From a virus: a stretch of DNA of 32,464 nt. The position numbers were made by a program, and so were the translations under genes. This document shows, in pieces, positions 876-28,955 of this stretch. The first letter of the stretch is position 1, and each line of letters opens with the position of its first letter. The notes beneath the pieces are model-generated. The model searched no databases. It saw only the letters and a program-made list of their open reading frames with translations, and had not been told where the DNA came from. The stretch is taken from positions 1 to 32,464 of IMG/VR virus record IMGVR_UViG_3300037193_001914; one strand, given 5' to 3'.

Positions 876-1121
876 CTAGTAGGTCGACGTGGCCTCGGGC
901 GCCCGCTCCGGCTCGCGCAGCACCTCGTCGGGCTTCTCCACACCGGCCGAGATCAGGATGTCCCGGGCCGCCCGGCGGGCCATGCGCACGGTCGCGCCGG
1001 TCTGGGTGCCGTGCCCGTTGGTGCGCTCCAGCTCGGTTGCGGAGTCCCAGATGAACGTGGCCAGCACCTCGGCGTGCACGTCGCTGACCAGGAACGCGGG
1101 CTTACTCGTCGGTCGGGGCAT
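876..1121 (-). CDS. Hypothetical protein
   Basis: An 81-residue protein of unknown function. The ATG at 1121 has AGGAG 7 nt upstream; an in-frame GTG at 1124 would add one residue. The start lies inside the end of the RHH gene (1102-1281), giving a 20-nt overlap that suggests translational coupling. The central part (residues 15-60) could form helices and carries an arginine-rich stretch (MARRAARD); the tail is acidic and proline-containing. No catalytic or metal-binding motif is visible. Confidence 0.6.
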   Translation of the reverse strand: MPRPTSKPAFLVSDVHAEVLATFIWDSATELERTNGHGTQTGATVRMARRAARDILISAGVEKPDEVLREPERAPEATSTY

Positions 1122-1281
1122 CACGCATCTCCTCGCGTCGGGTCAGGGCCTCATCGAGCAGCTCGCGCGCCACCCACGCCATCGAACGCCGGGAACGTGC
1201 GGCCTCGCGCTGGAGGCGGTCACGCAGCGACGGGGTGACGCGGAGGTGCACCACGTGCTCCGGGGCCTCGGTCTCCTCCAT
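1102..1281 (-). CDS. Short Arc-like ribbon-helix-helix regulator (59 aa)
   Basis: A 59-residue protein, MEETEAPEHVVHLRVTPSLR at its start. The pattern is strand (VVHLRVTP), helix (SLRDRLQREAARS), turn (RRSMA), helix (WVARELLDEALTRRE), typical of Arc/MetJ-type RHH regulators, which bind as dimers to short repeated half-sites. It is transcribed divergently from the HTH gene at 1326, and the 44-nt gap between them holds repeated CGATA half-sites that are good candidates for its operator. A TATGAT -10 element (1293-1298) leaves only a few untranslated bases and no ribosome site, so the message is probably near-leaderless. It is a plausible immunity or copy-control switch protein; no larger repressor was found in the window. 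Confidence 0.75.
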   Translation of the reverse strand: MEETEAPEHVVHLRVTPSLRDRLQREAARSRRSMAWVARELLDEALTRREEMRDAPTDE

Positions 1282-1325: not shown

Positions 1326-2042
1326 ATGACCTCCACCGGGATCAACGGCCACCGGGGCTCCACCAACGGGCACCGGCCGCCGATCACCACCCGCGAGGAG
1401 GCCATGGGCGTGGCCCTGGTGCTGGTGAAGGAGCGCGGCCTGGGCGTGCGGGGCATCGCCGAGGAGCTGACCGCCCGCGGGTGGCCGATCGGGAAGACCC
1501 AGGCCGCCGAGCTCGTGAAGGAGGCGCGCGCGGCCGAGCCGTTCCTGGACCTGCTCGACCGCGAGGAGGCGCGCAAGGACCAGGCCGACCGGCTGCACTC
1601 CTACTACCGGATCCTGCTGGAGGACATGCGCTCCGGGCAGCTGCGCGGGTTCGAGTTCGTCGAACGTATGCAGTGGATCGAGAACCGGTGGGCCAAGCTC
1701 GCCGGCCTGGACGCGCCGAAGCAGCTGCAGGTCGCGGTCGAGGACAAGCGCGAGGTCACGCCGGACTTCGCCATGCTGGACGCGCTGCGCGAGGCGATCC
1801 GGGAAGCACGCGCCGGGGGCAGGGCCGACGAGGCCGCGATGCTGGAGGGCCAGCTGACCGAGCGGGAGTACGCCGAGCGCCACGCCGAGCGGGAGCGCAT
1901 CGACCGGCACCACGAGCGGCTGCACGAGGAGCGTGGGGACGACGACGGGATCAGCCCGCCGTGCATGGACTACTCCTGCGAGCTGTTCGAGCAGGCCCGG
2001 GAGGCGGAGATCGCCCGGTCGCGGGGCGTTACCGATTCGTGA
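1326..2042 (+). CDS. HTH protein resembling a small terminase subunit
   Basis: A 238-residue protein. Residues about 38-70 form a helix-turn-helix-like region (GLGVRGIAEELTARGWPIGK). Residues about 80-140 are helical and end in WAKLAGLDAPKQ, followed by an acidic, charged C-terminus. The same order (HTH, helical region, LGLDAPEK) occurs in the small terminase at 9439-9894, so the two look related. The location at the start of the early operon, away from terL, argues for a regulatory or replication-related DNA-binding role. There is no ribosome site before the ATG, in keeping with a leaderless start; an in-frame ATG at 1404 behind GAGGAG is an alternative. Confidence 0.65.
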   Translation: MTSTGINGHRGSTNGHRPPITTREEAMGVALVLVKERGLGVRGIAEELTARGWPIGKTQAAELVKEARAAEPFLDLLDREEARKDQADRLHSYYRILLEDMRSGQLRGFEFVERMQWIENRWAKLAGLDAPKQLQVAVEDKREVTPDFAMLDALREAIREARAGGRADEAAMLEGQLTEREYAERHAERERIDRHHERLHEERGDDDGISPPCMDYSCELFEQAREAEIARSRGVTDS

Positions 2043-2147: not shown

Positions 2148-2354
2148 ATGACTGACCACCCGTTCGTCACGAGGAACGAGGCGGCGAGCATGCTGAACAT
2201 CAGCACGAAGACGCTCGACCGCTGGGTCCGGCTCGGCGTCGTCCGGAAGATCCAGGCAGTCCCGAACGGCCGCGTGCTGTTCCGGCGCAGCGAGATCGTC
2301 GACCTCCAGCGGGTCGACGAGGAGGACACCCGAGTGCTCGCCTACGCGGGCTGA
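2148..2354 (+). CDS. Excisionase-family (MerR-like) HTH protein
   Basis: A 68-residue protein that is almost entirely one winged HTH of the excisionase/MerR-like group: FVTRNEAASMLNISTKTLDR (helix-turn-helix), then WVRLGVV, then the wing GRVLFRRSEIVDL. Family members bind DNA either as recombination directionality factors or as small transcription and replication regulators. No integrase is visible anywhere in the genome, so a true excisionase role is unlikely; regulation of the replication operon that follows fits better. GAGAGG lies 5 nt before the ATG. A hairpin follows the stop. Confidence 0.8.
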   Translation: MTDHPFVTRNEAASMLNISTKTLDRWVRLGVVRKIQAVPNGRVLFRRSEIVDLQRVDEEDTRVLAYAG

Positions 2355-2440: not shown

Positions 2441-2875
2441 ATGTCTATGACCCAGTCTATCGCCTCCGACAACCCCGTCTTCCCGCGCTACAACCCGGGT
2501 GGGCGAGCGGTCGAGATCTTCGACGCATCGTTCTCCCCGATCTCCGTCTCGATGGTCGCCCACTACGTGTGGATCAACACCGAGGGCGACACCCCGAAGC
2601 CCGAGCACACCACCATGCCGGTCATCGGCGTGCTGGTGCGCCACCACGTGGACGCCCACGGCGAGATCACCGACGTCGAGACCGTGCTCGCGGTGCAGTA
2701 CGAGGACGGCTGCCAGTCGATCGTCCCCGCCATGAGCGTGGCCACCGAGGCCACCAACATGGGCTTCGTCGGGTGCTACCTCGAGAACTTCCCGCCCACC
2801 GACGAGGAGCTGAACCGGGTCGCGGTCAGCACCTGGAACTGGATGCAGCACCTGGCCGCGAAGGCGGGGGCGTGA
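2441..2875 (+). CDS. Hypothetical protein, first gene of the replication operon
   Basis: A 144-residue protein of unknown function. It is acidic, with a mixed strand/helix look and a conserved-looking core (VAHYVWINTEGD, then VRHHVDAHGEITDVETVLAV) and an aromatic C-terminal helix (STWNWMQHLAAKAGA). No membrane segment or catalytic motif is visible. Its stop overlaps the start of the next gene as TGATG, so it is translationally coupled to the J-domain-like protein and belongs to the same operon as the primase and helicase. A second in-frame ATG two codons downstream is an alternative start. Confidence 0.75.
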   Translation: MSMTQSIASDNPVFPRYNPGGRAVEIFDASFSPISVSMVAHYVWINTEGDTPKPEHTTMPVIGVLVRHHVDAHGEITDVETVLAVQYEDGCQSIVPAMSVATEATNMGFVGCYLENFPPTDEELNRVAVSTWNWMQHLAAKAGA

Positions 2876-3312
2876 TGGCCACCGTCACGATCACCGGCGA
2901 CCCGTTCGTCGGATACCGCGTCCACTTCCCGTACGACCCCACGCTCGTCGCGCTGATCAAGTCCGCCGTCCCCGCCGGGCAGCGCCGGTGGGATCCGGAG
3001 GCGAAGCGGTGGACGATCCTGGACACGTTCTCGGCCAACTACTTCGCCCGTAAGGCCCGCGCGGCCGGGCACGCGGTCGAGATGGACGGGGTCCGCCACG
3101 AGTCCGACTCCCGGTTCCGCGGCCAGCAGCAGGCGCCGCCCCGCTCGTCGAGCACGGTCTCCACCGACTGGGCCACCGCGCTGCTGCGCGCCGTCGGCAA
3201 GGAGCGCCAGGACGCGGTCTACAAGGCGCTCTCCCGGGTCCTGCACCCGGACGTGGGCGGCGACACCGAGCTCATGCAGCAGCTCAACGAAGCGCGCCGG
3301 AGGGTGGCATGA
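2875..3312 (+). CDS. HARP-like / J-domain-like small protein
   Basis: A 145-residue protein. Residues about 12-50 (YRVHFPYDPTLVALIKSAVP, then RRWDPEAKRW) resemble the short module found at the N-terminus of SMARCAL1/HARP-type helicases: a YD..LV...K pattern then a WDP..K.W motif. Residues about 100-145 contain ALSRVLHPDVGGD, i.e. the HPD tripeptide and flanking helices of a J-domain, though the N-terminal J-domain helices look shortened. J-domains stimulate Hsp70 ATPase. In replicons a DnaJ-like function could load or remodel initiator complexes, as host DnaJ/DnaK does for iteron-bound initiators. That role is inferred from its place immediately before the primase. It overlaps both neighbours (TGATG before, ATGA after). 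Confidence 0.7.
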   Translation: MATVTITGDPFVGYRVHFPYDPTLVALIKSAVPAGQRRWDPEAKRWTILDTFSANYFARKARAAGHAVEMDGVRHESDSRFRGQQQAPPRSSSTVSTDWATALLRAVGKERQDAVYKALSRVLHPDVGGDTELMQQLNEARRRVA

Positions 3313-4739
3313 ACACGCCGTACGACCTGGCCGCCGAGATCTACCGGATGAGCGGGCTGGCCCCGATCCCGGTCTCCGGGAAGATCCCGCCCGTCTCCGG
3401 GTGCACCGGCAAGACCGGCACGGTGACCGACCAGAAGATCGCCGCCTGGCTGGACCCGAAGCGGTGCACCCGCTGGTGCGGCGACAAGACCCACCGCCAC
3501 GCCGGGTACGACAACGTGGCCCTGCGGCACGAGGGCACCATCTCGATCGACATCGACGAGGGGTACGGCGCGAAGTCGGACGGCACGCCGAAGCAGGGCG
3601 TGCGGAACCTGACCGAGTGGGCCCGGCGGCTCGGGCTCTCCCCGCTCCCGCCGACCGTCTCCTCCACCGCGCGGGGCGACGACAGCCCGTCGCGGCAGTA
3701 CTTCTACCGGCTGCCCCGCGAAGCCCCCTCGCTGGACACCAAGCCGTGCGAGGACGTCGAGGTGCCCGCCTACCACCACCGCTACTCCGTGGTGTTCCCG
3801 TCGGTGCACCCCGACACCGGCGCGCTCTACCGCTGGTACGAGGCAGGCGAGACCGGGCTCGTGCTGCCGACCTGGGGCCCGGCCACCAACCGGTTCCCGC
3901 GCCGGGGCGAGTTCGCGCTGCTGCCGGACGACTGGTTCAAGGCGCTGTGGCGCGAGGTCGCCGCCATCGACCCGAACGCCACGGTGGTCGGGCTCGAGGA
4001 ACTGCTCGACTCGTTCCCGAGCGGCCCGCCGTCCCCGCGGATGGCCCAGCTGATCGAACACTGGTCCACCGCACACGTCGGGCACGGCGAGATCGGCAAG
4101 GCGGGCAAGCACGCGCTGCTGTGCGGCCGGGAGGGCGAGCCGGGCGCCCGCACGCTGTGGGAGGTGATCCACGCCCGGTACACCGAGTACGTCCAGGACG
4201 CTCGCCCGCACGAGGCCGAGCGGCAGCTGTTCGGTGAGGACGGGATCGTGGCGGTCACCGTGGCCGCCGCTCAGCGGCACAAGATCTCCGGGCTGCCGCA
4301 GATCCTCAACGACCCGAACGCGGCCTGGCGCAAGCTCGGCGTCGACCCGGAGTCCGGGCGGCTCACGAGCTCGCGGCCCGGCCCGGCGGACTCGACCGCG
4401 GCCCAGCACCCCGAGCTGGCCAGCGTCGAGGACCTCCAGGCGTTCGTCGCCACCTTCACCCGCGCCGGGACTCCCCGGTACGCCACAAACCGCTCCCAGT
4501 GGCTCACCTCGGCGCTGGTGCTCAACTCGAACGACCGGCCGCGTCAGTTCCACCGGCACGCCGTGGCCGCCATGCAGGACGTGTTCGCCGGCAGGTACTC
4601 CGCGCAGGCCGCGGTCGACCTGCTCACCGAGGTCTACACCGACCCCCGCGTCGCCGCCGGGCTGGTGCTGCCTCTCGACCTCGCGCTGCGTGCCGCGCTG
4701 CACGCCGCGCTCAACACCATGGAGAGGAGGGCCTCCTGA
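3309..4739 (+). CDS. Prim-Pol bifunctional DNA primase/polymerase
   Basis: A 476-residue archaeo-eukaryotic-type primase (Prim-Pol family), expected to make primers, and possibly extend DNA, at the phage origin. Visible family features: an N-terminal GLAPIPVSGKIPPVSGCTGK; the catalytic metal site SIDIDE with D81 and D83; the SPSRQYFYRLP strand (about residue 128); and YHHRYSVVFPSVHPDTG (about 155-170) followed by YRWYE, the pattern seen in actinobacterial Prim-Pol proteins of integrative elements. The C-terminal 200 residues are helical and unassigned. Length is normal for a primase lacking its own helicase domain; the helicase is the next gene, joined by a TGATG overlap. It overlaps the upstream gene by ATGA. 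Activity is inferred from motifs. Confidence 0.85.
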   Translation: MNTPYDLAAEIYRMSGLAPIPVSGKIPPVSGCTGKTGTVTDQKIAAWLDPKRCTRWCGDKTHRHAGYDNVALRHEGTISIDIDEGYGAKSDGTPKQGVRNLTEWARRLGLSPLPPTVSSTARGDDSPSRQYFYRLPREAPSLDTKPCEDVEVPAYHHRYSVVFPSVHPDTGALYRWYEAGETGLVLPTWGPATNRFPRRGEFALLPDDWFKALWREVAAIDPNATVVGLEELLDSFPSGPPSPRMAQLIEHWSTAHVGHGEIGKAGKHALLCGREGEPGARTLWEVIHARYTEYVQDARPHEAERQLFGEDGIVAVTVAAAQRHKISGLPQILNDPNAAWRKLGVDPESGRLTSSRPGPADSTAAQHPELASVEDLQAFVATFTRAGTPRYATNRSQWLTSALVLNSNDRPRQFHRHAVAAMQDVFAGRYSAQAAVDLLTEVYTDPRVAAGLVLPLDLALRAALHAALNTMERRAS

Positions 4740-7054
4740 TGTCGCTCCCCAACGAGTCCGAGGCCACCCAGGAGGACGTCGCGCAGGCGACGAACGGCCA
4801 GGACCAGGAGGAGACCCTTTCCGCGGCCGAGCGGATGCGCAAGCTCAAGGAGGCCGCCGACCAGGCCGAGGAGGACCGCCTCTTCGTCGGGCTGAGCGAG
4901 CCGAACGCCGCCTACCTGCGTCGGGTGTTCGCGATCTCCCCCGGGCACAGCGCCGAGCACCGCCGGGACGAGGACACCAACGAGGAGGTGTGCGAGTGCC
5001 CACTCACCGACGGGTGCCCGCCCACCAAGTCCCGCGCCTGGTACGACCTGGAGTGCCGCCAGGTGGCCGCGCTGATGATCCGGGTGCGCGCGGACCGCAT
5101 CCGCAACGCGCACAAGTACCAGTACTACACCCCGGACCCCGGCTTCCGGCTCGAGGTCCTGCGCGACCTGCTGATCCTGCTCTCCTCCGGCCACCTCGGC
5201 TCCCGGGGCGCCTGGGCCGAGGTCGTGAAGCAGCTCGGGCTCACCCCGCAGGACAAGGACGGGAACAACGAGGTGCTCAACGTCGCGCTGGCCGACATGG
5301 TGGGCAAGGAGGCGCCCGCCGAGCTGCGCTTCCCGCGGGGGGAGCGCCACCCGTACCTGCACAGCCCGAAGATGACCGTGCCCGGGATGGCCTGCGACGG
5401 CCCGCTGTGCGGTGGGCGGGGCGACTCCGCCACCGAGGAGCTCCTCGCGGTGTACTCCGCGGACCACCGCTCGCACGTGGCCGTGGACGACATCTACGCG
5501 GTGGCGGTGAAGGGCCCGCAGGTCGGGCGCGCGGTGATGGCGATCGACTCGAAGTCGGCGTCGGAGTTCGCCAGCGCGATGATGGCCGCGGCCTACGACA
5601 AGCTGGGGTACAACCCGGGCCCCACACGGATCTCCACGGCCGCGACCTTGATCCGGGGCACCGCACTGCGCTGGGCACGCCAGGGGAACGTCCAGCGGAC
5701 TCCCCTGGCGGTGCGGTGCGTGCGCTACGGCGAGGGGTACCTGATCGACCTGGGCACCGGCCGCGCGGTGGAGGTGACCGAGCACGGCTGGTCGGTGTGC
5801 AACTGGAAGCCGGAGTACCCGGTCATGCGGGCCACTGCCAGGGCGCTGCCGGAGCCGGTGCGCTACGGGGGCGAGACGGCAGGGACGATCCGGCGCAAGC
5901 ACCTGAGCTTCGAGGAGGACGACCCGAACTGGCACCAGGTGCGGATCTGGCAGGCCGTCGAGTTCTTCGACGACCACGAGCGCCAGCACCTGTTCCTCAC
6001 CGGCGGGTCGGGGTCGGGCAAGTCCAAGCGGGCGCAGTCCATCGCGGCGATCATCGACCCCTTGGCCACGACCGCCGACGGCCGCCCGGTGATGGGCGGG
6101 CCGCTGCCGGACGACGACGCGCTCGCGCCCCAGCTGATGAGCAACTACCTGTTCACCTCGGACAACCTGACCAACATCAACGAGGAGGACAGCGACCGGC
6201 TCTGCCGCATCGCCACCGGCTACCGGTTCACCCGCCGCGTGCTCTACACCACCTCCGACCTGTACGAGGCCGTCGTGGTGCGGGCCGGGCTGTTCACGGG
6301 CATCTCCATCCCGCCCCAGCTGCGCGAGGACGCCCAGAACCGGATCCTGCACCTGGAGCTGTCCCAGGAGGCCGAGAAGCGGCCCTCCACGGTCCTGGAC
6401 ACCGAGCGGGAGCGCCTCGGGGGCGTCATGCTCGCCGAGCTGCTCGACGACATGGTGGCCGTGCTCAAGGCGTGGAACGCGGGCCAGTACAACACCGAGG
6501 ACCGGTTCCCGATCGTCGACTGCGCGGCGCAGGTGTTCGGCCCGGAGTACGTGGCCACCCGCGCGGCGCGGCAGGACGACCTGGCTCGCAACCGGGCCGA
6601 GGGCGACACTCAGCTGCAGGCTGTGGCCATGGTGGTCAAGCACGCGGGCGTGCCGGTGCTCGGGACCGAGAAGAGGGTCGTCGCACTCACCGCCGAGCAG
6701 TGGCACTCCGCCATCGCCCACACCCAGGCCGACCCGGAGCGCACTCCGAAGCACTGGTCGCCGAACGCCAACGCCCTGGCGCAGCGCCTCAGTCGCGGGA
6801 AGGACACGCTCGCGATCATGGGCGTGGAGATCCACCGGCGGCGTTCGAGCAAGGCGCGCTGGATCGAGCTGGTGTGGGACCCGGCGCAGCAGTCCACCCA
6901 GATCCCCGACCCGGCGATCGAGGACCGGCTGACGGTGCTGAACGGATCCCCTGTCGGCCCGTTCCGGGGGGCCACCGCGCTCGCCGCTCGGCACTACGCG
7001 GAGGTCCAGCGGCTCACCCGGGAGTGGCTGATCGAGGCCACGTCCGCTCGGTAG
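4739..7054 (+). CDS. SF3/D5-like P-loop replicative helicase
   Basis: A 771-residue ATPase paired with the Prim-Pol gene. Residues 1-60 are acidic and low in complexity. About 80-120 hold several cysteines (CECPLTDGC). About 320-390 form the domain that usually precedes the helicase in actinobacterial plasmid and phage relatives (VRCVRYGEGYLIDLGTGR, then HGWSV). Walker A is GGSGSGKS (422-429). FTSDNL (472-477) followed by DRLCRIATGYRFTRRVLYTT matches the Walker B/sensor region of primase-associated SF3/D5-type helicases. Such hexameric helicases open iteron or primase-dependent origins, and the origin-like repeats begin just 60 nt downstream. The start is the ATG in TGATG after GAGAGGAGGG. 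A strong terminator follows. Helicase activity is inferred. Confidence 0.85.
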   Translation: MSLPNESEATQEDVAQATNGQDQEETLSAAERMRKLKEAADQAEEDRLFVGLSEPNAAYLRRVFAISPGHSAEHRRDEDTNEEVCECPLTDGCPPTKSRAWYDLECRQVAALMIRVRADRIRNAHKYQYYTPDPGFRLEVLRDLLILLSSGHLGSRGAWAEVVKQLGLTPQDKDGNNEVLNVALADMVGKEAPAELRFPRGERHPYLHSPKMTVPGMACDGPLCGGRGDSATEELLAVYSADHRSHVAVDDIYAVAVKGPQVGRAVMAIDSKSASEFASAMMAAAYDKLGYNPGPTRISTAATLIRGTALRWARQGNVQRTPLAVRCVRYGEGYLIDLGTGRAVEVTEHGWSVCNWKPEYPVMRATARALPEPVRYGGETAGTIRRKHLSFEEDDPNWHQVRIWQAVEFFDDHERQHLFLTGGSGSGKSKRAQSIAAIIDPLATTADGRPVMGGPLPDDDALAPQLMSNYLFTSDNLTNINEEDSDRLCRIATGYRFTRRVLYTTSDLYEAVVVRAGLFTGISIPPQLREDAQNRILHLELSQEAEKRPSTVLDTERERLGGVMLAELLDDMVAVLKAWNAGQYNTEDRFPIVDCAAQVFGPEYVATRAARQDDLARNRAEGDTQLQAVAMVVKHAGVPVLGTEKRVVALTAEQWHSAIAHTQADPERTPKHWSPNANALAQRLSRGKDTLAIMGVEIHRRRSSKARWIELVWDPAQQSTQIPDPAIEDRLTVLNGSPVGPFRGATALAARHYAEVQRLTREWLIEATSAR

Positions 7055-7068
7055 ACCCCTCCCGCCAG

Positions 7069-7107
7069 AGAAGCCCCTTCGTCACTCAGCGTGGCGAAGG
7101 GGCTTCT
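7069..7107 (+). terminator. Strong terminator of the replication operon
   Basis: A perfect 13-bp stem, AGAAGCCCCTTCG / CGAAGGGGCTTCT, with a 13-nt loop, begins 15 nt after the helicase stop and is followed by TCGTGT. It isolates the replication operon from the origin repeats. Confidence 0.85.
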
Positions 7108-7148
7108 TCGTGTCGGTGACAGGGTCCGCGCGGCAACCCTGTCACCAG

Positions 7149-7210
7149 CGGGCCGACCCTGTCATCGGCTGATAAGGGTCCCCTCAGTCTCCGATGACAG
7201 GGTCGGCCCG
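7149..7210. repeat. Perfect 20-bp inverted repeat inside the iteron field
   Basis: Bases 7149-7168 and 7191-7210 are exact reverse complements over 20 bp. Each arm contains one iteron and extends it on both sides (CGGGCCG before, TCGG after). The 22-nt spacer is 7169-7190. The arms could form a long hairpin or cruciform, or bind a dimeric initiator head to head. Confidence 0.8.
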
Positions 7211-7354
7211 ATGACAGGGTTGTGACAGGGTTCCAAGCCCACCCTGTCATCGAGTTTTGCCTGGTCAGAGCTCTACAGTGACAGGGTGACAGGGTTTTCT
7301 CTCTGGAAAAGGGAAGAGAGAGGAGGTCTTTACATGGGGGGATACCTGTAGACA

Positions 7355-7505
7355 TTGATCTTGTAAGGCGCCCGTTACCTCCATACCGCTGGGTATGTTC
7401 GGGCTAGTTGATCTTAAACCCTGTCATGGCTGTGGACATCCCCCAGGTCGCGCTGATGACAGGGTTCGGATCAGACCCTGTCACCAACCCTGTCATCAAG
7501 ATCAA
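7355..7505. repeat. Three TTGATCTT octamers in the origin
   Basis: TTGATCTT occurs at 7355-7362 and 7408-7415, and inverted (AAGATCAA) at 7498-7505. The last two lie 2 bp from an iteron on opposite sides, so the unit 7408-7426 is roughly mirrored by 7487-7505. This looks like a second protein-binding element of the origin. Confidence 0.55.
7431..7439 (-). promoter_or_regulatory. DnaA-box-like site
   Basis: On the - strand the sequence is ATGTCCACA, one mismatch from TTGTCCACA, the preferred DnaA box of high-GC actinobacteria. It is 4 bp from the iteron at 7418-7426, the usual neighbourhood of host DnaA sites in iteron origins. One 9-mer with a mismatch is weak evidence alone. Confidence 0.45.
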
Positions 7506-7778: not shown

Positions 7779-8708
7779 GTGGCTGGACAGTGGCCCGTGG
7801 ACGAGCCGCGGCTGACCGTGGTCGACCACACCTCGTCCGACTGGTCCGCCCGCTACGAGGAGCGGTACGTCCGCCGGGGCCGGGAGAACGGTGCCGCGAC
7901 GTACTCGCGCGAGATCGTGGAGCACCACGTGCCGGTGTGGGAACAGTACGCGCCCCCGGGCACGATCCTGTCGACCTGCGCCCCGCTCGTGACCCCGCCC
8001 GCCGAGCTGGACGGCCGCCGGCCTGCGCTCGTCGTGCAGTACTTGCACGCGTACCCGTACCACCGCCCGACCACTCTGGCGCGCAAGGTGCACCGGCAGT
8101 TCCCGCGGGTGCTGTTCGTGACCGCGTACCGCGCACTGCACCGGCAGCTCCGGGCCGAGGGCATGGGCTCGATCTTCGTTCCGATGGCCATCGACGTGGA
8201 CCAGGTGCGGGCGGCGGCGGGACCTCCTGCCCGAGCCCATGGCCGCGGTGTCGCCCTGTACTTCGGGAACGTGACCAAGGCCAAGCGCGACGAGTACCAG
8301 GCGCTCAGCGACGCGTTCAAGGCCGAGGGCTGGCGCTTGGACCTGTTGTCGGACGGCCAGTTCAAGGGCGAGCCCGTGACCCAGGCGCGGGCGTGGGGTA
8401 TCGCGTCGGGCTACGACTACGGCGTGGGCGTCGGCCGGTGTGCGCTGGAGCTGTACGCGCTCGGGCTGCGCGTGATGGTGTCCGGGGCCGAGTTCGGTGG
8501 GCTGGTCACCACGGACGCGGAGTGGGGGACCCAGGTCGGGTGCAACTTCAACGGCCGCGTGGTGACCTTCGACCGGGACCGGAACACGTGCGTGCGGCTG
8601 TTCGACCAGGCCATGGTCCGCCCGGCGTCGATGCCGGTCTCCCGCGCGGTGGCGCAGCTCCAGTCGGGCTTGCGCGGCCTCTCGGCTCAGGGGTGGTTCT
8701 CGTGGTGA
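7779..8708 (+). CDS. GT-B (GT4-like) glycosyltransferase
   Basis: A 309-residue protein that fits a GT-B glycosyltransferase. The N-terminal half ends with RVLFVTAYRALHRQL and a linker (IFVPMAIDVDQV) like the acceptor-domain boundary of GT4 enzymes. The C-terminal half starts with ALYFGNVTKAKRDEY and contains CALELYALGLRVMVSGAEFG, corresponding to the donor-nucleotide region with the conserved glutamate. The sugar and acceptor are unknown; targets could be virion proteins, as known for some mycobacteriophages, phage DNA, or host surface glycans. The start is GTG at 7779. The stop overlaps the second glycosyltransferase-like gene as GTGA. No membrane segment is visible. Confidence 0.7.
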   Translation: MAGQWPVDEPRLTVVDHTSSDWSARYEERYVRRGRENGAATYSREIVEHHVPVWEQYAPPGTILSTCAPLVTPPAELDGRRPALVVQYLHAYPYHRPTTLARKVHRQFPRVLFVTAYRALHRQLRAEGMGSIFVPMAIDVDQVRAAAGPPARAHGRGVALYFGNVTKAKRDEYQALSDAFKAEGWRLDLLSDGQFKGEPVTQARAWGIASGYDYGVGVGRCALELYALGLRVMVSGAEFGGLVTTDAEWGTQVGCNFNGRVVTFDRDRNTCVRLFDQAMVRPASMPVSRAVAQLQSGLRGLSAQGWFSW

Positions 8709-9439
8709 CCCTGCCCGACATCGTGATCCCGGTGCGGCCCGGGGACGACAACGAGGAGCTGCGCTACACCCTGCGCGGCATCGCGGCCCACGTCCCGCAC
8801 CGCACGGTCTGGGTCGTCGGCCACTGCCCGCCGTGGGTCTCGCTGCAGGTACAGCACATTCCCGTGGCCCAGCGCGGCACCCGGTGGGAGAACAGCCGCG
8901 CGAACCGCATGGCCGCGTGCGAGCACCCGAACGTGGCCGAGAACTTCCTGCTGTTCAACGACGACTTCTTCGTGCTCGAGCCGGTCGAGCGCATCCCGCT
9001 GCACCACCGCGGCACCGTGCGCCAGGTCGCGGGCGAGCACCTGCGCGAAGGCCGCCGGACCGAGTACCTGGCCGGGATGCGCGCGACCGCTCGGTTCCTG
9101 CGTGAGTGCGGCGTGGACGAGCCCCTGAGCTACGAGCTGCACGTACCGATGCCCTGCACCAAGCGCGGCCTGGCGACGGCTCTACGGGTCGCTGAGGACT
9201 CCGGGATCGCGGTACCGCACGTCCGCACCCTGTACGGGAACCTGGCCGCCCCGGACCGCCCTGGGACGTTCCTGGCCGACGTCAAGGTGGCGGACCCGAA
9301 CCAGCGCCCGCCCGACGACGCGCTGTTCGTCTCCAGCAAGGACCGCTCGTTCGCGGGCGCGCTCGGACGCTGGGTGCACGAGCGGCTCCCCGACCCGTGC
9401 CGGTACGAGAGCGCCGGCCGATCCACGGAGGTGGCGTGA
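8705..9439 (+). CDS. Stealth-like sugar-transferase family protein
   Basis: A 244-residue protein. DIVIPVRPGDDNEELRYTLR near the N-terminus, VWVVGHCPPWV, then FLLFNDDFFVLEP (about residues 80-92) with its acidic NDD motif, and later SYELHVPMP, together resemble the CR2/CR3 regions of Stealth-type hexose-phosphate transferases and GT-A folds. The acidic motif would bind the metal and sugar nucleotide. It overlaps the preceding GT-B gene by GTGA and the small terminase by TGATG, so it is co-expressed with packaging genes. GTG at 8702 is an equally good start. Substrate and acceptor cannot be read from the sequence. Confidence 0.65.
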   Translation: MTLPDIVIPVRPGDDNEELRYTLRGIAAHVPHRTVWVVGHCPPWVSLQVQHIPVAQRGTRWENSRANRMAACEHPNVAENFLLFNDDFFVLEPVERIPLHHRGTVRQVAGEHLREGRRTEYLAGMRATARFLRECGVDEPLSYELHVPMPCTKRGLATALRVAEDSGIAVPHVRTLYGNLAAPDRPGTFLADVKVADPNQRPPDDALFVSSKDRSFAGALGRWVHERLPDPCRYESAGRSTEVA

Positions 9440-9894
9440 TGCCCAACCCCCACGCTCGAGCGAACCCGGCGCTGGTCGCCGAGGAGCAGGAGCGCGTGCT
9501 CGAGCTCAAGAAGAAGGGCCTGACCGTGCGCGCGATCGCGGCAGAGCTCGGCGTCTCGAAGTCCACAGTGCAGAACCGGCTCGACGCCGCCATCGCCGAG
9601 ATCGTGCACCCGGCCGCCGAGGCGGTGCGCACCCTGGAGCTGGACCGGCTCGACTCCTGGCACGCGTACCTGGAGGACCGGCTGGTCGACCCGCTGAACC
9701 GGGACCCGGAGAAGACCGTGCAGACCCTGCTGCGCTGCCAGGAGCGTCGGGCGCGGTACCTGGGCCTGGATGCCCCGGAGAAGGCCGAGATCACGGCCAC
9801 GGTCTCGCCCGCGGACGAGGAGCTGGCCGCGCTGCTGCGCGAGGCTCGGGCCCAGCGGGACGCACGACTGGGCCAGGTTCGGGGCGAGTCGTGA
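9439..9894 (+). CDS. terS: Terminase small subunit
   Basis: A 151-residue DNA-recognition subunit of the packaging motor. Residues about 15-52 form a helix-turn-helix (GLTVRAIAAELGVSKSTVQN). A helical middle follows (ELDRLDSWHAYLEDRL, then QERRARYLGLDAPEK), and the C-terminus is charged and likely contacts the large subunit. Its length is typical. The ATG overlaps the upstream stop (TGATG). The large subunit follows after two tiny genes. A longer relative with the same layout lies at 1326-2042. Confidence 0.75.
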   Translation: MPNPHARANPALVAEEQERVLELKKKGLTVRAIAAELGVSKSTVQNRLDAAIAEIVHPAAEAVRTLELDRLDSWHAYLEDRLVDPLNRDPEKTVQTLLRCQERRARYLGLDAPEKAEITATVSPADEELAALLREARAQRDARLGQVRGES

Positions 9895-10055: not shown

Positions 10056-10273
10056 CCGCGGAGCTGCCAGGCGACTACCCGACCGAGTTCGAGCGCACCC
10101 TGCTCCCGGTGGTGCCCTGGCGCGTGCTGCTGTCCACCGGCGACGCGCTGAGCGTGTCTCTGCCCGCGGACTGGGCTCCGGGAGGGGACTGGTCGACCGC
10201 GGCCGGGTTCCTGCTCCTGAACGGGTCCTGGGTCTCGCTGGCCCACATCGTGCGGATCGAACGGGTCGGCTGA
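10052..10273 (+). CDS. Hypothetical protein between terminase genes
   Basis: A 73-residue acidic protein, probably mostly strands (PWRVLLSTGDALSVSLPA, then LLLNGSWVSLAHIVRIERVG). The final segment looks like a small SH3-like or barrel element, but no family is recognised. GTG start overlapping the preceding stop; the end overlaps the terL start as TGATG. The position suggests a packaging accessory, by context only. Confidence 0.65.
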   Translation: MTAELPGDYPTEFERTLLPVVPWRVLLSTGDALSVSLPADWAPGGDWSTAAGFLLLNGSWVSLAHIVRIERVG

Positions 10274-11796
10274 TGTGGTCGGGGTCTGACGTGCGGTTCG
10301 GCGAGCTTGACTGGCTGGCCCGGCTGGCTGAGCACGACCCGCGCCTGCTCGCCGACCCCGATGGACGCAGGATCCTCACGGCCGCGGACCCGGTGCTGTT
10401 CGCGCTCCTGTACTTCCGGCGGCACCTGACGTCCCCGGAGACGGGCGGGATCTCGCTGTCGCCCTTCCACGTGGAGATGGCCGAGTCCGCGCTCCGGTGG
10501 ACCCGTCAGGACCTCGGACCGGCCGAGATCAGGGACGCGTTCATCGCGCCTCGCGGTTCGGGCAAGAGCACATGGACCTACCTCGTGCTGCCGTGCTGGG
10601 CCCTGGCGCATGGGCATCGGCGGTACGTCGCCGCGTTCGCGGACTCGGCGAACCAGGCCGAGCAGCACCTGGCCACGTTCAAGCGCGAGCTGGACACGAA
10701 CGAGCTGCTGCGCCGGGACTACCCCACGCTCGTCGCGCCGGCCGTGCGCTCGACCGGGGGCGCGGTCGCCGACAACCGCGGCATGTACATCGCCAAGAGC
10801 GGGGCGGTGTTCCAGGCGCGCGGCATCGACTCGTCCACGCTCGGTGCGAAGGTCGGCTCACAACGCCCTGACCTGCAGCTTTTCGACGACGTGGAGCCGG
10901 ACGCGTCGAACTACTCGCTGCACCAGAAGGCCAAGCGCCTGGACACGATCGTGAACGCGGTCTTTCCGATGAACCTGAACGCGGTCGTGGTGCTGGCCGG
11001 GACCGTGACGATGCACGGCTCGGTGATGCACGACATCGCGCGCCAGGCCACGGACCCCGGTAACGCTCCGTCCTGGCCGCGCGACGAGAACATCAGGACG
11101 CGGTACTTCCCGGCGATCGTGGCCGGGGACGACGGCGTGGAGCGCAGCCTGTGGCCGGAGCGCTGGTCGATCGAGTTCCTGCAGTCGATCCGGCACACGC
11201 GCTCGTACGCGCTCAACTACGACAACCGCCCCGTCGCGCTCGACGGTGCGTACTGGGCGCCCGAGGACATCCGCTACGGCGAGGTCGAGGGCGTGACCCG
11301 GCGCGTGCTGTCCATCGACCCGGCCGTGACCTCGTCCTCGCGCGCGGACTACACCGGGCTGTCCGTGGTCGGGTACTCGCCCTCTGAGCGGGCCTGCGTG
11401 GTCGAGCACGCCGAGCAGGTGCGCCTGACCCCCGCGGCTCTGCGGGCGCGCGTCCTGGACCTGCTGAGTCGGTTCGAGCTGCGGCACGTGCTCCTCGAGC
11501 GGAACCAGGGCGGGGACTGGCTGGCCGAGGTGCTGGCCCCGCTCCCGGCGAAGGTCCACACCGTGCACCAGAGCGAGCGCAAGGAGGTGCGCGCGGCCCG
11601 CGTGCTGGACCACTACCAGTCCGGCCGGGTTCGCCACGCACGTGCTCTCGCGCAGCTGGAGGAGCAGATGCTCGCGTTCCCGAACGTGGCCAACGACGAC
11701 CTCGTCGACAGCGTGGGCTCGGCGGTGCTGTGGTTCCTGGCCGAGGCCAAGGGCGCGTCCGCACGACCCCGTGCCCGGGTCCTGAGCTACGCCTGA
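10273..11796 (+). CDS. terL: Terminase large subunit
   Basis: A 507-residue ATP-driven packaging motor and headful/site nuclease. The ATPase domain has Walker A (APRGSGKST, about residues 92-100) and Walker B (LQLFDDVEPD, about 202-211); GTVTMHG (about 241) fits the coupling motif. The nuclease domain has SIDPAVT (about 350) with a downstream DYTG, LERNQGGDW (about 410), and NDDLVDSVG (about 475), consistent with the acidic metal-binding residues of the RNase H-like fold. Length is typical. It lies between terS and portal, as in most siphophages, and starts in a TGATG overlap. Confidence 0.93.
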   Translation: MWSGSDVRFGELDWLARLAEHDPRLLADPDGRRILTAADPVLFALLYFRRHLTSPETGGISLSPFHVEMAESALRWTRQDLGPAEIRDAFIAPRGSGKSTWTYLVLPCWALAHGHRRYVAAFADSANQAEQHLATFKRELDTNELLRRDYPTLVAPAVRSTGGAVADNRGMYIAKSGAVFQARGIDSSTLGAKVGSQRPDLQLFDDVEPDASNYSLHQKAKRLDTIVNAVFPMNLNAVVVLAGTVTMHGSVMHDIARQATDPGNAPSWPRDENIRTRYFPAIVAGDDGVERSLWPERWSIEFLQSIRHTRSYALNYDNRPVALDGAYWAPEDIRYGEVEGVTRRVLSIDPAVTSSSRADYTGLSVVGYSPSERACVVEHAEQVRLTPAALRARVLDLLSRFELRHVLLERNQGGDWLAEVLAPLPAKVHTVHQSERKEVRAARVLDHYQSGRVRHARALAQLEEQMLAFPNVANDDLVDSVGSAVLWFLAEAKGASARPRARVLSYA

Positions 11797-11861: not shown

Positions 11862-13328
11862 GTGACCGACGACCTCATGCACGCCGTGCACGAGATCCGC
11901 GAGCACGCGGACGACTACCTGCTCGCGCGCGACTACTTCGACGGGTCCGTGTCCGAGGTGTTCGTGTCCCCAGTCGTGCGGCGTGCGCTGCGCGGGGGCG
12001 TGTGCGGATTCGACATCAACCTCGCGAAGCGGCCGGTGACCGCGGTCCTGGACCGGATGCGCATCTCCGCGGTGTCGGTGCCCGGGGACGAGACCGCGAC
12101 CCGGCGGCTGGTGGACACGATCTGGAACCCGAACCGGCTGGGGCGGGTGAGCAAGCGCATCCACTGGTCCGCGCTCACGCACGGGGACGCGTACGCGATC
12201 GTGTGGCCCGGCGACGACGAGTCGAGCGTGGAGGTGCACTACAACAGCCCGGTCACCACGCGGGTGTTCTACTCCGAGGACAACGACCGGGAGAAGGCGT
12301 ACGCGGCCAAGCTCTGGGGCGAGGGGCGGGGAGACCAGCGCCGGTTCCGCTGCGACCTGTACTACGCCGACCGCGTGGAGTCGTACGCGACCGCGGTCGG
12401 GAGCAAGGGCGAGCAGCGGGCCGAGTGGCGGGAGTATACCGCGGACGAGGGCGGTCCGTGGCCGATCCCGAACCCGTACGGCGTGGTGCCGGTGTTCCAC
12501 TTCCGCACCGGCGAACCCTACGGCCGCCCGGTGCACGCGGACGCGTTCGGCCCCCAGAACGCCATCACGAAGCTCTCGGCCACGCTCATGGCCACGATCG
12601 ACTTCCAGGGGTTCCCGCAGCGGTACGCCCTGCTCAACCCGATGGACTCGGCCGCGGCCTCCAGCGTGGACTGGGACGACGACGAGACCTCGACCCCGGA
12701 TGCGGACGGGCGCGCAATGGAGGTCGGCCCGGGTCGGATCCTGCAGCTCGACGCGAAGGGCGTGGGCCAGTTCGACCCGGCGAACGTCGAGGCGTTCCTG
12801 CGCCCGCTGAACTTCTACGCCCGCGCGATGTCCGCGGCCACGGCCACGCCCCTGCGCTTCCTCGAGCCCAGCGGCCAGGTGCCCTCGGGCGAGAGCCTGC
12901 GCGCGGACGACGCCCCGCTCGTGCAGCGGATCCTGGACCACGAGGAGCTGATCGGCGACGAGTGGGCCGACCTGCTCGTGTTCGCCGCCCAGGTGGCCGG
13001 TGAGCCGGTTGCGCGCCCGGACGTGCAGTGGGCGCCCGTCCAGACCGTGGACGACCTGGCGGGCTGGCAGACGGTCAAGGCCAAGCAGGAGGCCGGCGTC
13101 CCCGCCCGTCAGGCGCTGACCGAGGCCGGGTACACGTCCGAGCTCGTCCAGCGGTGGCTCGAAGGCAGCCAGGAGCCCAACATCGACACCCGGATCGACG
13201 CGCTGACCCGGATCGGCCAGGCGATGAACCAGCTCGGGTCCGCGGTCAACTCCGGCGTGATGAGCACCGACCAGGTGGACCAGATCCTGCAGCAGACCCT
13301 GGCCGACCTGGTCCGCGACCCGCAGTAG
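11862..13328 (+). CDS. Portal protein (SPP1 gp6-like)
   Basis: A 488-residue protein forming the dodecameric DNA channel at the capsid vertex. Order and content fit the gp6-type portal group of actinophages: an N-terminal helical segment, RPVTAVLDRMRISAV, a wing region with HWSALTHGDAYAIVW, PYGVVPVFHFRTG, and a helical crown and C-terminus with SGESLRADDAPLVQRILD. GTG at 11862 is chosen because AGGAGG precedes it by 5 nt; upstream in-frame codons would run through the promoter. It is followed by scaffold and capsid genes. Confidence 0.88.
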   Translation: MTDDLMHAVHEIREHADDYLLARDYFDGSVSEVFVSPVVRRALRGGVCGFDINLAKRPVTAVLDRMRISAVSVPGDETATRRLVDTIWNPNRLGRVSKRIHWSALTHGDAYAIVWPGDDESSVEVHYNSPVTTRVFYSEDNDREKAYAAKLWGEGRGDQRRFRCDLYYADRVESYATAVGSKGEQRAEWREYTADEGGPWPIPNPYGVVPVFHFRTGEPYGRPVHADAFGPQNAITKLSATLMATIDFQGFPQRYALLNPMDSAAASSVDWDDDETSTPDADGRAMEVGPGRILQLDAKGVGQFDPANVEAFLRPLNFYARAMSAATATPLRFLEPSGQVPSGESLRADDAPLVQRILDHEELIGDEWADLLVFAAQVAGEPVARPDVQWAPVQTVDDLAGWQTVKAKQEAGVPARQALTEAGYTSELVQRWLEGSQEPNIDTRIDALTRIGQAMNQLGSAVNSGVMSTDQVDQILQQTLADLVRDPQ

Positions 13329-13388
13329 CGCACGACCCCGGCCGCTCCCCTGTAGCCGGGCTGGCACGAGAGAAATCGGGGACCCCGA

Positions 13389-14021
13389 ATGCCCGAGAAC
13401 GACCGACCCGACGAGCACGACGACACCGATGTGGGCACGGACACCAGCACGGTGGACGAGAACGCGAACGAGGAGGAGCACGACGAGCCCCGTCCGGCGA
13501 CCAAGGCCGACGGCACGCCCTACACCCAGGCCGACATCGACGCCCTGAACGAGGCACTGCGCAAGGCCCGACAGGCGGAGCGCAGGCTCAAGCGCGGCGG
13601 CCAGCGGCCCGCTCAGGCCCAGGACGGGGCGTCCGAAGAGGACACGGAGAAGATCCGCGCCGAGGTCGAGACCGCAGCCGCGGGGAAGTGGAAGCCCGTC
13701 GTGGTCCGGCAGGCGGCGCGTGCGGCGTTCGCGGACGCGGGCCTGATCCTGCCGAAGTCCGGCGGCGACGAGGCGCTCGCCCGGGTGCTGCGCCTGCTGG
13801 ACATGGACGACATCGACGTGACCGACGAGGGCGCGGTCGAGGGCCTGACCGAGCAGGTGGAGGAGATCCGGCGCGACTGGCCGGACCTGTTCGCGCCCCC
13901 GGCCTCGCGCAACGGTCGGCCGCCGCGCGTGAACGCGGGCAACCGGGACGACGCGTCGGGCCAGGCCCCGCGCTCGGCCGCGGACCGGATCGCGGCTCAG
14001 CTGCTGTCCGGCAGGCGCTGA
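13389..14021 (+). CDS. Capsid scaffolding protein
   Basis: A 210-residue protein with the features of a phage scaffold. It has a very acidic, disordered N-terminus (residues 1-45, many D/E/T), a helical centre with ALRKARQAERRLKRGGQ, and a basic C-terminus (SAADRIAAQLLSGRR) of the type that contacts the capsid protein. It lies directly before the major capsid gene. No prohead protease was found, so scaffold release may not need proteolysis. The start follows a purine-rich GGGGA. Confidence 0.8.
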   Translation: MPENDRPDEHDDTDVGTDTSTVDENANEEEHDEPRPATKADGTPYTQADIDALNEALRKARQAERRLKRGGQRPAQAQDGASEEDTEKIRAEVETAAAGKWKPVVVRQAARAAFADAGLILPKSGGDEALARVLRLLDMDDIDVTDEGAVEGLTEQVEEIRRDWPDLFAPPASRNGRPPRVNAGNRDDASGQAPRSAADRIAAQLLSGRR

Positions 14022-14138
14022 GAGCGCGCTGAGACGGCCCAGGTGCGCGTCAACGTCACCCCGGGGGCACGGCTCCCGTCCGGGGATCGAAGGGCGTCGG
14101 GTACCTCCTAGTCCGCTCCCTGCGCGCTCCCTGGGCCA

Positions 14139-14178
14139 GCGAACGCCGGTCGATCCGACATGGACGACCGGCGTTCGT
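14139..14178 (+). terminator. Terminator before the capsid gene
   Basis: A perfect 12-bp stem GAACGCCGGTCG / CGACCGGCGTTC (14141-14152, 14165-14176), plus C-G and G-T closing pairs, with a 12-nt loop, followed by TCTCT. It lies in the 294-nt gap after the scaffold gene, which also contains the capsid promoter and an untranslated leader. Confidence 0.75.
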
Positions 14179-14201
14179 CTCTGCTCGGGGGCACTTCGGG
14201 G

Positions 14202-14207
14202 TAAGAT
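14202..14207 (+). promoter_or_regulatory. Candidate promoter -10 of the capsid gene
   Basis: TAAGAT lies 24 nt after the terminator stem and about 110 nt before the capsid start. No convincing -35 is seen. A dedicated capsid promoter behind a terminator would give the high expression this protein needs. Confidence 0.4.
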
Positions 14208-14315
14208 CGTGCTCAGTTCGACCGCGTGAGCGTGACGCTCCCGGTCCGTCCCGCAGCCCGGGGCCGTGATGGGACAGGGCGAGACCCACACCCATCACAG
14301 TGCGAGGAGCACCCC

Positions 14316-15230
14316 ATGGCACGCGCGACGTTCGAGGACTGGATTCCGGAAGAGAAGGGCGGCCCGGTCATCCGGGCGATCACCGCCGGTTCCGCCGTCG
14401 AGTCCCTGGCCCGCCGGGAGCCGATGGCGTCGGAGACCAAGTCCGTGCCCCGGATGGCCGGTATGACCTTCGCTGGCGCCATCGCCAAGGGCGCGGCCTA
14501 CCCCGAGGACGAGTCCGCGAACGACGACGTCGTGCTGCGCGCCCGCAAGCTGGGCAAGGTGCTGCGCGTCGCGGACGAGGACCTGCAGGACACCGCGCAG
14601 GTCGCGAACATCATCCAGGCCAAGCAGCTGGACTGGGCCCGCAGCTACGCGATCGGCTTCGACAACGCCACGCTGGGCACCACCGCGGTCGCCAACGGCA
14701 CCACGGTCCCGTTCAACTCGGTGCTCTACGCGCTGACGCAGAACAACACCGACACCGGCTACACCGCCAACGCCAACATCACCGAGACCGACGGCGCGCT
14801 CGCGCTCGCGGACCTGGAGGCGGCGGTCGGCGGCGCGGAGGAGAGCAACTTCTACTCCGAGCAGGACATGGTCGTGATCGCGCACCCCGCGTTCAAGGCC
14901 CTGCTGCGCGGCCTGGCGACGGCGAACGACAACGTGGTGATCGTGGACGGCCTCGAGCCGCGCCTGTTCGGCATCCCGGTCCGCTGGTCGCTCGGTGCCC
15001 GCACCCACGCCACCGCGACGGACTCGCCCACCGGTGACCCGCTCCTGGTCGTGGGCAACCGGCAGCTGCTGATCCTGGGCGACCGGTCGGGTCCGGAGTA
15101 CATGCTCTCCCCGGCCGACTCGGGCGCGGCGTTCCTCACCGACGAGGCGCTGCTCAAGGTCCGTACCCGGCGTGGCTTCGCGGTCGGCAACGAGAACGCG
15201 TTCCACGTCGTGCGGATCACCGCCAGCTGA
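14316..15230 (+). CDS. Major capsid protein (HK97 fold)
   Basis: A 304-residue shell protein. The N-terminal arm leads to an E-loop/P-domain-like stretch (AAYPEDESANDDVVLRARKL, then GKVLRVADEDLQDT), a spine-helix region, and an A-domain with MVVIAHPAFKALLRG, RLFGIPVRWS and RTRRGFAVGNENAFHVVRI, the usual end of small HK97-fold capsid proteins. There is no long N-terminal delta domain, consistent with the separate scaffold gene upstream. ATG with GAGGAG 6 nt upstream. Hairpins on both sides isolate it as a single-gene unit. Position after scaffold and before connectors supports the call. Confidence 0.92.
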   Translation: MARATFEDWIPEEKGGPVIRAITAGSAVESLARREPMASETKSVPRMAGMTFAGAIAKGAAYPEDESANDDVVLRARKLGKVLRVADEDLQDTAQVANIIQAKQLDWARSYAIGFDNATLGTTAVANGTTVPFNSVLYALTQNNTDTGYTANANITETDGALALADLEAAVGGAEESNFYSEQDMVVIAHPAFKALLRGLATANDNVVIVDGLEPRLFGIPVRWSLGARTHATATDSPTGDPLLVVGNRQLLILGDRSGPEYMLSPADSGAAFLTDEALLKVRTRRGFAVGNENAFHVVRITAS

Positions 15231-15244
15231 CGCTCCCCTCCACC

Positions 15245-15292
15245 TGATCCCGGCCGCTGAGCGGCCCCCGATCCGTTCAGCGGCCGGGATCA
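15245..15292 (+). terminator. Terminator after the capsid gene
   Basis: A perfect 16-bp stem, TGATCCCGGCCGCTGA / TCAGCGGCCGGGATCA, with a 16-nt loop, begins 15 nt after the capsid stop. It is the longest hairpin in the window. Partial read-through would set the ratio of capsid to connector proteins. Confidence 0.8.
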
Positions 15293-15319
15293 ACCTCGAA
15301 CCGAGAGGAGGGGCCACAG

Positions 15320-15826
15320 ATGGCTCCCAGGACCCGCAAGACGGCCCAGAACAAGACCGAGCGCGTCGACTCCCGCGAGAACGTGGAGGCGGTGGAGAAG
15401 GCGCACCAGGCCGCCGGCCCGAACCCGTACGAGGACCCGAAGGACGCCCGCAACGTCGAGCCGACCCCGGCCCCGACCGGCGGGGGCCAGGACCTCGGCG
15501 AGCTTGTGGGTGCGGAGGTCACGTTCAAGGCCGACTCCGAGAAGATCGGCATGGTCCCCGGCGAGAAGCCGAAGGTCCGGGCCACCGACCAGTTCGAGTA
15601 CCCGGTCGTGGTCAAGCCGATCGGTCCGAACAACGACGTGGCTCCCGGCCCGGACACCGCTGCCGTCACGGCGGCGATGAACGCGGGCCTGCGGCCGGTC
15701 GGCGAGGCCAGCGTCAAGTCCGTGGAGCCGCACGCCGATGGCGTGTCCGCGGTGGTGACGTGGGTCGTGCCGTGCGTGCGCGCGAGCTCCCCGGAGGCGC
15801 GCGACCCTGAGCAGATCGGGCGCTGA
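15320..15826 (+). CDS. Hypothetical head-associated protein
   Basis: A 168-residue protein of unknown family. The first 65 residues are disordered and charged (RKTAQNKTERVDSRENVEAV, proline-rich PTPAPTGGG). The rest looks like a small strand-rich domain (AEVTFKADSEKIGM, then VSAVVTWVVPCVR). Position directly after the capsid gene and before the head-tail adaptor suits a decoration or accessory head protein, but no homology is recognised. GAGAGGAGGGG upstream gives a strong ribosome site. Confidence 0.7.
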   Translation: MAPRTRKTAQNKTERVDSRENVEAVEKAHQAAGPNPYEDPKDARNVEPTPAPTGGGQDLGELVGAEVTFKADSEKIGMVPGEKPKVRATDQFEYPVVVKPIGPNNDVAPGPDTAAVTAAMNAGLRPVGEASVKSVEPHADGVSAVVTWVVPCVRASSPEARDPEQIGR

Positions 15827-15828
15827 GC

Positions 15829-16311
15829 ATGCCCTGGGCGACTGTCGAGGAGACCGTGACCCTGACCGGGGTGACGGTCTCCTCCGGCACGCTCGCGCAG
15901 GCTCAGGGCGTCCTGGACCTGTTCTCCGGCGTCACCGAGGACGTGGACGCCGAGCAGCTCTCCACGCGGGACCGGCGGCTGCTGCGGCAGGCGTGCGCGT
16001 ACCAGGCGGCGTGGATGCACGGGCAGATCGACGTGCCCACCCGCACCGACGTGTCCCAGCTCAACCAGGACGGACTCTCGTTCACGGTGGCGAACCCGGA
16101 CGCGCTGGTGCTGGCCCCGCTGGCCCGGCGTGCGCTGGCGCAGCTGTCGTGGCGTCGACCCGGCACCTCGATCCGGCTGCGGCGCGACGCGGACGGGGTG
16201 GCGCGGTTCCGGTGCATCGAGGACGTGCACGACGCGTTCCTGACCGACGACCCGGCGCTGTCCGAGTCCATGGGCTGGCACCAGTTCCCCCGGGAGCTGT
16301 GGCCGTCATGA
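15829..16311 (+). CDS. Head-tail adaptor (gp6/gp15-like)
   Basis: A 160-residue, largely helical protein. The pattern of N-terminal ATVEETVTLTG, a helix with AQGVLDLFSGVTEDVD, then RRLLRQACAYQAAWMHGQID, fits the adaptor ring proteins that dock under the portal. The end of the protein overlaps the next gene by ATGA. It is the first of four consecutive connector-type genes. Family assignment is from pattern and position. Confidence 0.7.
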   Translation: MPWATVEETVTLTGVTVSSGTLAQAQGVLDLFSGVTEDVDAEQLSTRDRRLLRQACAYQAAWMHGQIDVPTRTDVSQLNQDGLSFTVANPDALVLAPLARRALAQLSWRRPGTSIRLRRDADGVARFRCIEDVHDAFLTDDPALSESMGWHQFPRELWPS

Positions 16312-16712: not shown

Positions 16713-16768
16713 CCGGCCAAGACCCGAGCACGACCCGAACGACCCGCTGACGTGAAGGAGGCGAGCCG

Positions 16769-16810
16769 GTGATCGAGCATGCACGGCTCGCCGTCCGGTG
16801 GCCGCGATGA
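16769..16810 (+). other. Possible 13-codon leader ORF
   Basis: GTG at 16769 follows AAGGAGG and encodes 13 residues; its stop overlaps the next gene's ATG as ATGA. A true ribosome site leading only to a tiny peptide would couple translation into the tail-terminator gene. It may instead be the relic of a deleted gene. Confidence 0.3.
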
Positions 16811-17785: not shown

Positions 17786-17786
17786 C

Positions 17787-18041: not shown

Positions 18042-18079
18042 CCGGCGCCCCGGCCGGTAGACCGAACAGGAGATAGATC

Positions 18080-18670: not shown

Positions 18671-18672
18671 CC

Positions 18673-19307: not shown

Positions 19308-19310
19308 GTG

Positions 19311-22847: not shown

Positions 22848-22849
22848 CC

Positions 22850-23746: not shown

Positions 23747-23756
23747 AAGGGATCTG

Positions 23757-25232: not shown

Positions 25233-25238
25233 CCCCCG

Positions 25239-25262
25239 AGCACGCTCCCCAGCACGCTCCCC
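25239..25262 (+). repeat. Tandem 12-bp repeat
   Basis: AGCACGCTCCCC occurs twice in direct succession in the 50-nt gap between two tail genes. It probably arose by slippage and has no evident function. Confidence 0.7.
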
Positions 25263-28941: not shown

Positions 28942-28955
28942 GGGATCATGAAGCC

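Follow-up and report, generated by a model that had tools for sequence, protein, structure and literature searches.

Plasmid-type replication genes and an iteron origin in a 32-kb actinobacterial siphophage genome

Replication block and iteron origin

The window analysed here (an entire virus record of 32,464 bp; Table 1) is the 32-kb genome of an actinobacterial siphophage. Four co-directional genes that overlap or abut one another occupy 2441-7054 and are followed by an iteron array. An earlier reading of the sequence alone (the sequence-only reading) placed a single replication block at 2441-7505, and this holds.

Table 1. Features of the window
Feature	Position	Strand	Basis
Virus record IMGVR_UViG_3300037193_001914 (the window)	1-32,464		IMG/VR, whole record
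Exact terminal direct repeat, 141 bp	1-141 and 32324-32464		Circular contig
RHH protein, 74 aa	47-271	-	phrog_795 (E 1.8e-5) and Arc-like families
Arc-like RHH protein, 59 aa, candidate repressor	1102-1281	-	phrog_3431 (E 7e-7)
HTH-family protein, 238 aa, divergent from the Arc-like RHH gene	1326-2042	+	phrog_645 (E 2.7e-6)
HTH_17/MerR-like, Xis-like DNA-binding protein, 68 aa, just upstream of the block	2148-2354	+	PF12728 (E 1.5e-7); phrog_66 (E 2e-7)
orf2441, 144 aa, first gene of the block	2441-2875	+	ORF; one-base overlap with next gene
Accessory protein, 145 aa: beta-rich N-domain (possibly HARP-like), C-terminal J-domain-like HPDVGGD region	2875-3312	+	Motif, weak matches, model
Prim-Pol (bifunctional primase/polymerase), 476 aa	3309-4739	+	PF09250 (E 1e-12); phrog_1156 (E 2.5e-25)
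Rep-type ATPase/helicase, 771 aa, VirE/SF3-like	4739-7054	+	tblastn to pFP11-type ATPases and Zeta1847 gp37; alignment
Origin: 13 exact TGACAGGGT iterons, 7 forward and 6 reverse	7117-7495		Exact count
Iteron-free AT-rich gap, 122 bp, 48% GC	7296-7417		Candidate unwinding element
Three TTGATCTT/AAGATCAA copies (7355, 7408, 7498)	7355-7505		Nowhere else in genome
Two cargo genes between origin and terminase	7779-9439 (7779-8708; 8702-9439)	+	Second gene Stealth_CR2-like
Probable TerS	9439-9894	+	phrog_645
TerL	10273-11796	+	phrog_38
Head and siphovirus tail genes: portal, scaffold, MCP, tail tube, chaperones, TMP (by position), Dit, minor tail proteins	11862-29693	+	
Putative lipoprotein	30120-30809	-	Signal peptide and lipobox (LAAC); no family match
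NUMOD4/HNH homing-type endonuclease	31207-31527	-	PF07463 (E 6e-9)

No family match was identified for the orf2441 product in PHROGs, Pfam or NCBIfam. The second gene encodes the protein that had been called a J-domain-like accessory; its HPDVGGD motif is present, but profile support is weak. The best PDB sequence match is to the polyomavirus large-T J domain and is likewise weak (E 0.025, residues 111-139), and the N-terminal end matches HARP (PF07443) below significance (E 0.14). In a single-sequence model (pLDDT 71), the N-domain is rich in beta structure and three helices surround the HPD, with no significant fold match in a structure search; tblastn with the protein against phages recovered no relatives.

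The Prim-Pol call is secure, with a PF09250 match above the cut-off and a PHROG primase match (Table 1). For the ATPase, previously labelled an SF3-like helicase, no Pfam family or other profile match stands behind the label, but the protein has the motifs of VirE/SF3-type Rep ATPases. Alignment with plasmid Reps and gp37 of phage Zeta1847 shows invariant Walker A (G422, G425, K428, S429), DN (D475-N476), SD (S485-D486), TG (T493-G494) and R-x-D-x3-R (R529/D531/R535) motifs. The C-terminal region is partly conserved in the same alignment, and may bind the iterons. AlphaFold prediction of the ATPase without an alignment was uninformative (pLDDT 36), and IMG/VR scans with the helicase and with the Prim-Pol, each as a single protein, retrieved no relatives.

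The iteron array starts 63 bp downstream of the ATPase gene, with TGACAGGGT at 7117, 7136, 7156, 7195, 7212, 7223, 7241, 7279, 7287, 7418, 7457, 7475 and 7487 and zero copies in the rest of the 32,464 bp. Across 200 simulated sequences (order-3 Markov), the largest 9-mer cluster had 3 members in 182 cases, 4 in 16, 5 in one and 2 in one. The twelve 100-bp intervals of lowest GC in the genome start at 7211-7341 (49-52% GC, the remainder being mostly 65-76%). The iteron origin proposed in the sequence-only reading is thus borne out: 13 clustered copies against at most five in simulations, at the lowest GC of the genome. By its anatomy, 7117-7495 is a convincing iteron origin, to which an initiator is predicted to bind.

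No match to the origin was found by blastn against phages. When IMG/VR was scanned for DNA with three TGACAGGGT, 20 contigs were retrieved, none of them homologous to the window's proteins. They were rejected as relatives, as those inspected have apparent short tandem repeats in unrelated phages, and the TGACAGGGT motif alone is therefore no sign of kinship.

A replicon shared with plasmids and integrating elements

Besides Zeta1847, 23 plasmid records in the annotated collections encode the homologous ATPase, Streptomyces accounting for 17. Nine of these plasmids (pFP11, pSTS2 and seven more) were examined. The order Prim-Pol, ATPase, iterons is present in all nine, and in each the strongest cluster within 1.3 kb downstream of the ATPase is a 9-mer array of 5-10 copies. 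The Rep proteins of pFP11 and pWTY27 bind their iterons (PMC3583192). Given the shared order and this published binding, we infer that the window's block works like a pFP11-type replicon. The claim of a self-contained replicon holds in this sense: the block belongs to the type by which Streptomyces theta plasmids replicate.

Initiation would begin with binding of the TGACAGGGT iterons by the ATPase, probably via its C-terminal region. The ATPase would then melt the adjacent AT-rich gap and act as the replicative helicase, with the Prim-Pol priming on the opened strands and a host polymerase extending by theta replication. A possible role of the J-domain/HARP-like protein is to bring in host DnaK or to assist in remodelling the initiation complex. 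At minimum, the replicon would serve to copy the genome during infection. It is probable that the block is the phage's ordinary DNA-replication module and origin, in a plasmid-type design shared with Streptomyces theta plasmids, although its ATPase is only 24-26% identical to the plasmid Rep ATPases and is a candidate iteron binder.

Related units also occur beside integrases. The ATPase family is present in six of 390 Pseudonocardiaceae genomes, and five contexts, from four of the six, were read. Three of the five have a helicase homologous to that of the window, an iteron-like array located at its 3' end or shortly beyond it and, in contrast to the window, an integrase within about 5 kb. These chromosomal elements are G364 (GATGCCGCA x7, tyrosine integrase), G268 (CAGCGTCCA x5, serine integrase and a TerS-like gene) and contig C21 of G295 (GAACCGTCC x5, serine integrase). 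A 211-kb contig of Micromonospora NBRC 107566 carries an integrated prophage with related TerL, portal and MCP, an HTH regulator, an Xis-like HTH_17 protein and ten copies of GTGGGACAG just behind the helicase. Its helicase is of another type than the window's, and its tyrosine integrase (contig 159821-161332) lies about 15-18 kb away. Three copies of the TTGATCTT/AAGATCAA sequence lie among the iterons of this prophage as well (L036 904, 925, 978).

Two structural relatives in IMG/VR encode serine integrases, one (G001) together with a Prim-Pol fusion and the other (G002) with TGACGGGT iterons. The iterons of G002, G029, G003/G004 and G027 (TGACGGGT, TGACGGGGT, TGAGCGGGT) resemble TGACAGGGT. 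G027 has two glycosyltransferase-like ORFs (named by eye) where the window has its cargo genes. In G029 (IMGVR_UViG_3300045242_000191), 11 copies of the 9-mer of the TGACGGGT iterons lie at about 24200-24600, inside a 1617-codon open frame with a Prim-Pol-like start; an origin may therefore be embedded in coding DNA.

As the helicase-plus-iteron unit is found beside integrases, it is not diagnostic of a phage-plasmid. Iteron origins thus serve replication in these elements generally. Where one follows a Prim-Pol/helicase pair, the arrangement is often read as the mark of a plasmid; in actinobacteria it is a portable replicon, used by plasmids, integrating elements and phages. Because the replicon is portable, phage-plasmids will be over-predicted from the combination of Rep, iterons and no integrase if evidence on partition or on the host is not considered as well. 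The general result is a negative one: Prim-Pol/helicase plus iterons without an integrase is insufficient to call an actinobacterial phage-plasmid. The replication kit indicates how this phage probably copies its DNA, and is no proof of plasmid life. The block is also a compact candidate minireplicon for high-GC actinobacteria.

Lifestyle of the phage

Both RHH proteins of the sequence-only reading are present, by profile matches. The 44-bp gap between the Arc-like RHH gene and its divergent HTH partner (1282-1325) contains two CGCGATA repeats and is a candidate regulatory switch. The family matched by this partner, phrog_645, is matched a second time at the TerS position. Elsewhere in the window are an HNH homing-type endonuclease and a lipoprotein that is possibly of the superinfection-exclusion type (Table 1).

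Profile searches of the window's proteins for tyrosine and serine recombinases (PF00589, PF00239) were negative, with controls and relatives positive, in agreement with the earlier statement that no integrase is seen. No resolvase or tRNA was found in the window, and Rfam and PADLOC returned nothing. The ParA profile (PF13614) was negative, no ParA/ParB pair was identified among the scanned proteins, and no CI-type repressor was recognised among those profile-scanned, the Arc-like RHH protein being a candidate only. The sequence-only reading had proposed a search of bacterial assemblies for the element as an extrachromosomal circle. PLSDB and GTDB contigs yielded no host-borne copy at the sensitivity used, only distant relatives.

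That reading placed the structural genes and the replicon on one circle. The contig is circular by its 141-bp end repeat, but this is uninformative on lifestyle. The largest default k-mer of MEGAHIT is 141, and a circular assembly also results from phage DNA that is terminally redundant or concatemeric. As its length equals the assembler k-mer, the repeat shows only a circular assembly path and looks like an assembly overlap; circularity was thus set aside as plasmid evidence. In the related satellites MiniFlayer and MulchRoom, the direct terminal repeats measure 1057 and 1609 bp.

The reading that survives best, if at a little under an even chance, is a virulent phage without lysogeny genes, whether by loss or from the start, in which the iteron origin serves lytic replication only. 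Integrase, partition genes and a recognised CI-type repressor are all missing. The cultured Microbacterium phages Wyvern, Isperia and OscarSo are similar in size (32.5-33.9 kb) and have no annotated integrases, so the lack of an integrase also fits an ordinary phage isolate. However, the head genes are closer to those of integrase-bearing relatives (TerL about 58-60%, MCP up to 59%) than to those of these three phages, and the RHH repressor candidate and the Xis-like HTH are present.

A phage-plasmid is a temperate dsDNA phage, typically without an integrase, that replicates as a plasmid (PMC12977533). Here, the integration module of a temperate phage would have been lost and the block would keep the prophage as a plasmid, while the RHH proteins would act in copy control or immunity. 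We regard this as possible but rather unlikely. The window has virion structural genes, no integrase (although the structural relatives G001 and G002 carry one), and a plasmid-type replication gene and origin; of a repressor or immunity function, the Arc-like RHH gene, with its divergent partner and the repeats between them, is all that was seen. A relative, phage phiM2 of Streptomonospora litoralis (NZ_CP036456.1; TerL 44% over 91% of length), is recorded as a circular plasmid, has no annotated integrase, and is likely a real phage-plasmid of this lineage. The lineage can therefore be plasmid-borne, but with partition genes: phiM2 differs from the window in its size (90 kb), its two ParB-type genes, and the lack of any match to the window's replication proteins or a comparable iteron array. 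No partition system was found in the window, whereas ParA adjoins the origin in all eight pFP11-type plasmids readable on the downstream side, and parABS systems serve the extrachromosomal prophages of mycobacteria (PMC7157519). That no host-borne copy was found at the sensitivity used, and that the replicon is not diagnostic, also count against plasmid life. Of the phage-plasmid proposal in the sequence-only reading, the plasmid-type replicon and the missing integrase stand; the same unit beside integrases, the missing ParA and the failure to find a host-borne circle speak against the rest. Slightly less likely again is the specific form in which a pFP11-type Prim-Pol/ATPase/iteron replicon works without ParABS and RHH/HTH control genes replace an ancestral integration module. 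A lytic phage is thus somewhat more likely than a phage-plasmid.

An integrating phage whose integrase is too diverged to detect, or that uses a host or helper recombinase, would account for an Xis-like HTH_17 protein without an integrase and could draw on several proteins without assigned function, but is improbable given that recombinase profiles were negative and that no unassigned ORF both has the size of an integrase and resembles recombinases.

Comparison with known systems

The full siphovirus structural set claimed for the window is present in TerL, portal, scaffold, MCP and tail genes, but no lysis genes were recognised in it: no endolysin or holin could be discerned in any scanned protein of the window. 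In related Microbacterium phages, the endolysin gene sits between the portal and scaffold genes.

TerL, portal and MCP are homologous, at about 28-48% identity, to those of the Microbacterium phages OscarSo, Wyvern and Isperia, the Streptomyces phages Zuko and KimJongPhill, and the satellites MiniFlayer and MulchRoom, and their order is shared with the OscarSo/BR/MiniFlayer capsid lineage. The satellites differ in lacking a full tail set. Three IMG/VR contigs of 16-17 kb (L012, L014, L019) have TerL-portal-MCP with an adaptor homologue about 6 kb on, as in MiniFlayer, and are probable further satellites of this type; L016 is similar in size and gene content. In a Pseudonocardia MAG contig (JAOZVV010000118.1), FtsK/TraB-like, RepSA-like and ArdC-like ORFs (assigned by eye) immediately precede a prophage belonging to the same lineage, bringing conjugative-element and phage genes together on one contig.

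The replication block, unlike the head genes, is not homologous to that of the capsid-lineage phages compared (at the tblastn level), and the Microbacterium members have a Prim-Pol fused to a helicase. No iterons were detected in Wyvern, Isperia or OscarSo, and this origin design is therefore not universal in the lineage. Microbacterium phage Zeta1847 has a homologous helicase domain in gp37 (26-27% identity), but it is fused to a Toprim domain instead of a Prim-Pol, and this phage encodes a serine integrase.

The replicon is closest in design to those of pFP11, pSTS2 and their relatives. These plasmids have GGGACGCAC or GGTGACGCA as iteron instead of TGACAGGGT, ParA nearby and GntR-type regulators upstream, both of which the window lacks, whereas the J-domain-like gene of the window's block is not part of the plasmid loci. 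Shared with the plasmids are a Prim-Pol, a homologous ATPase and a 9-mer array directly downstream, with iterons in both orientations (in the plasmids, where read out), and the repA/repB/iteron locus of pWTY27 is similarly built (PMC3583192). Both the phage lineage and the replicon type have separate precedents.
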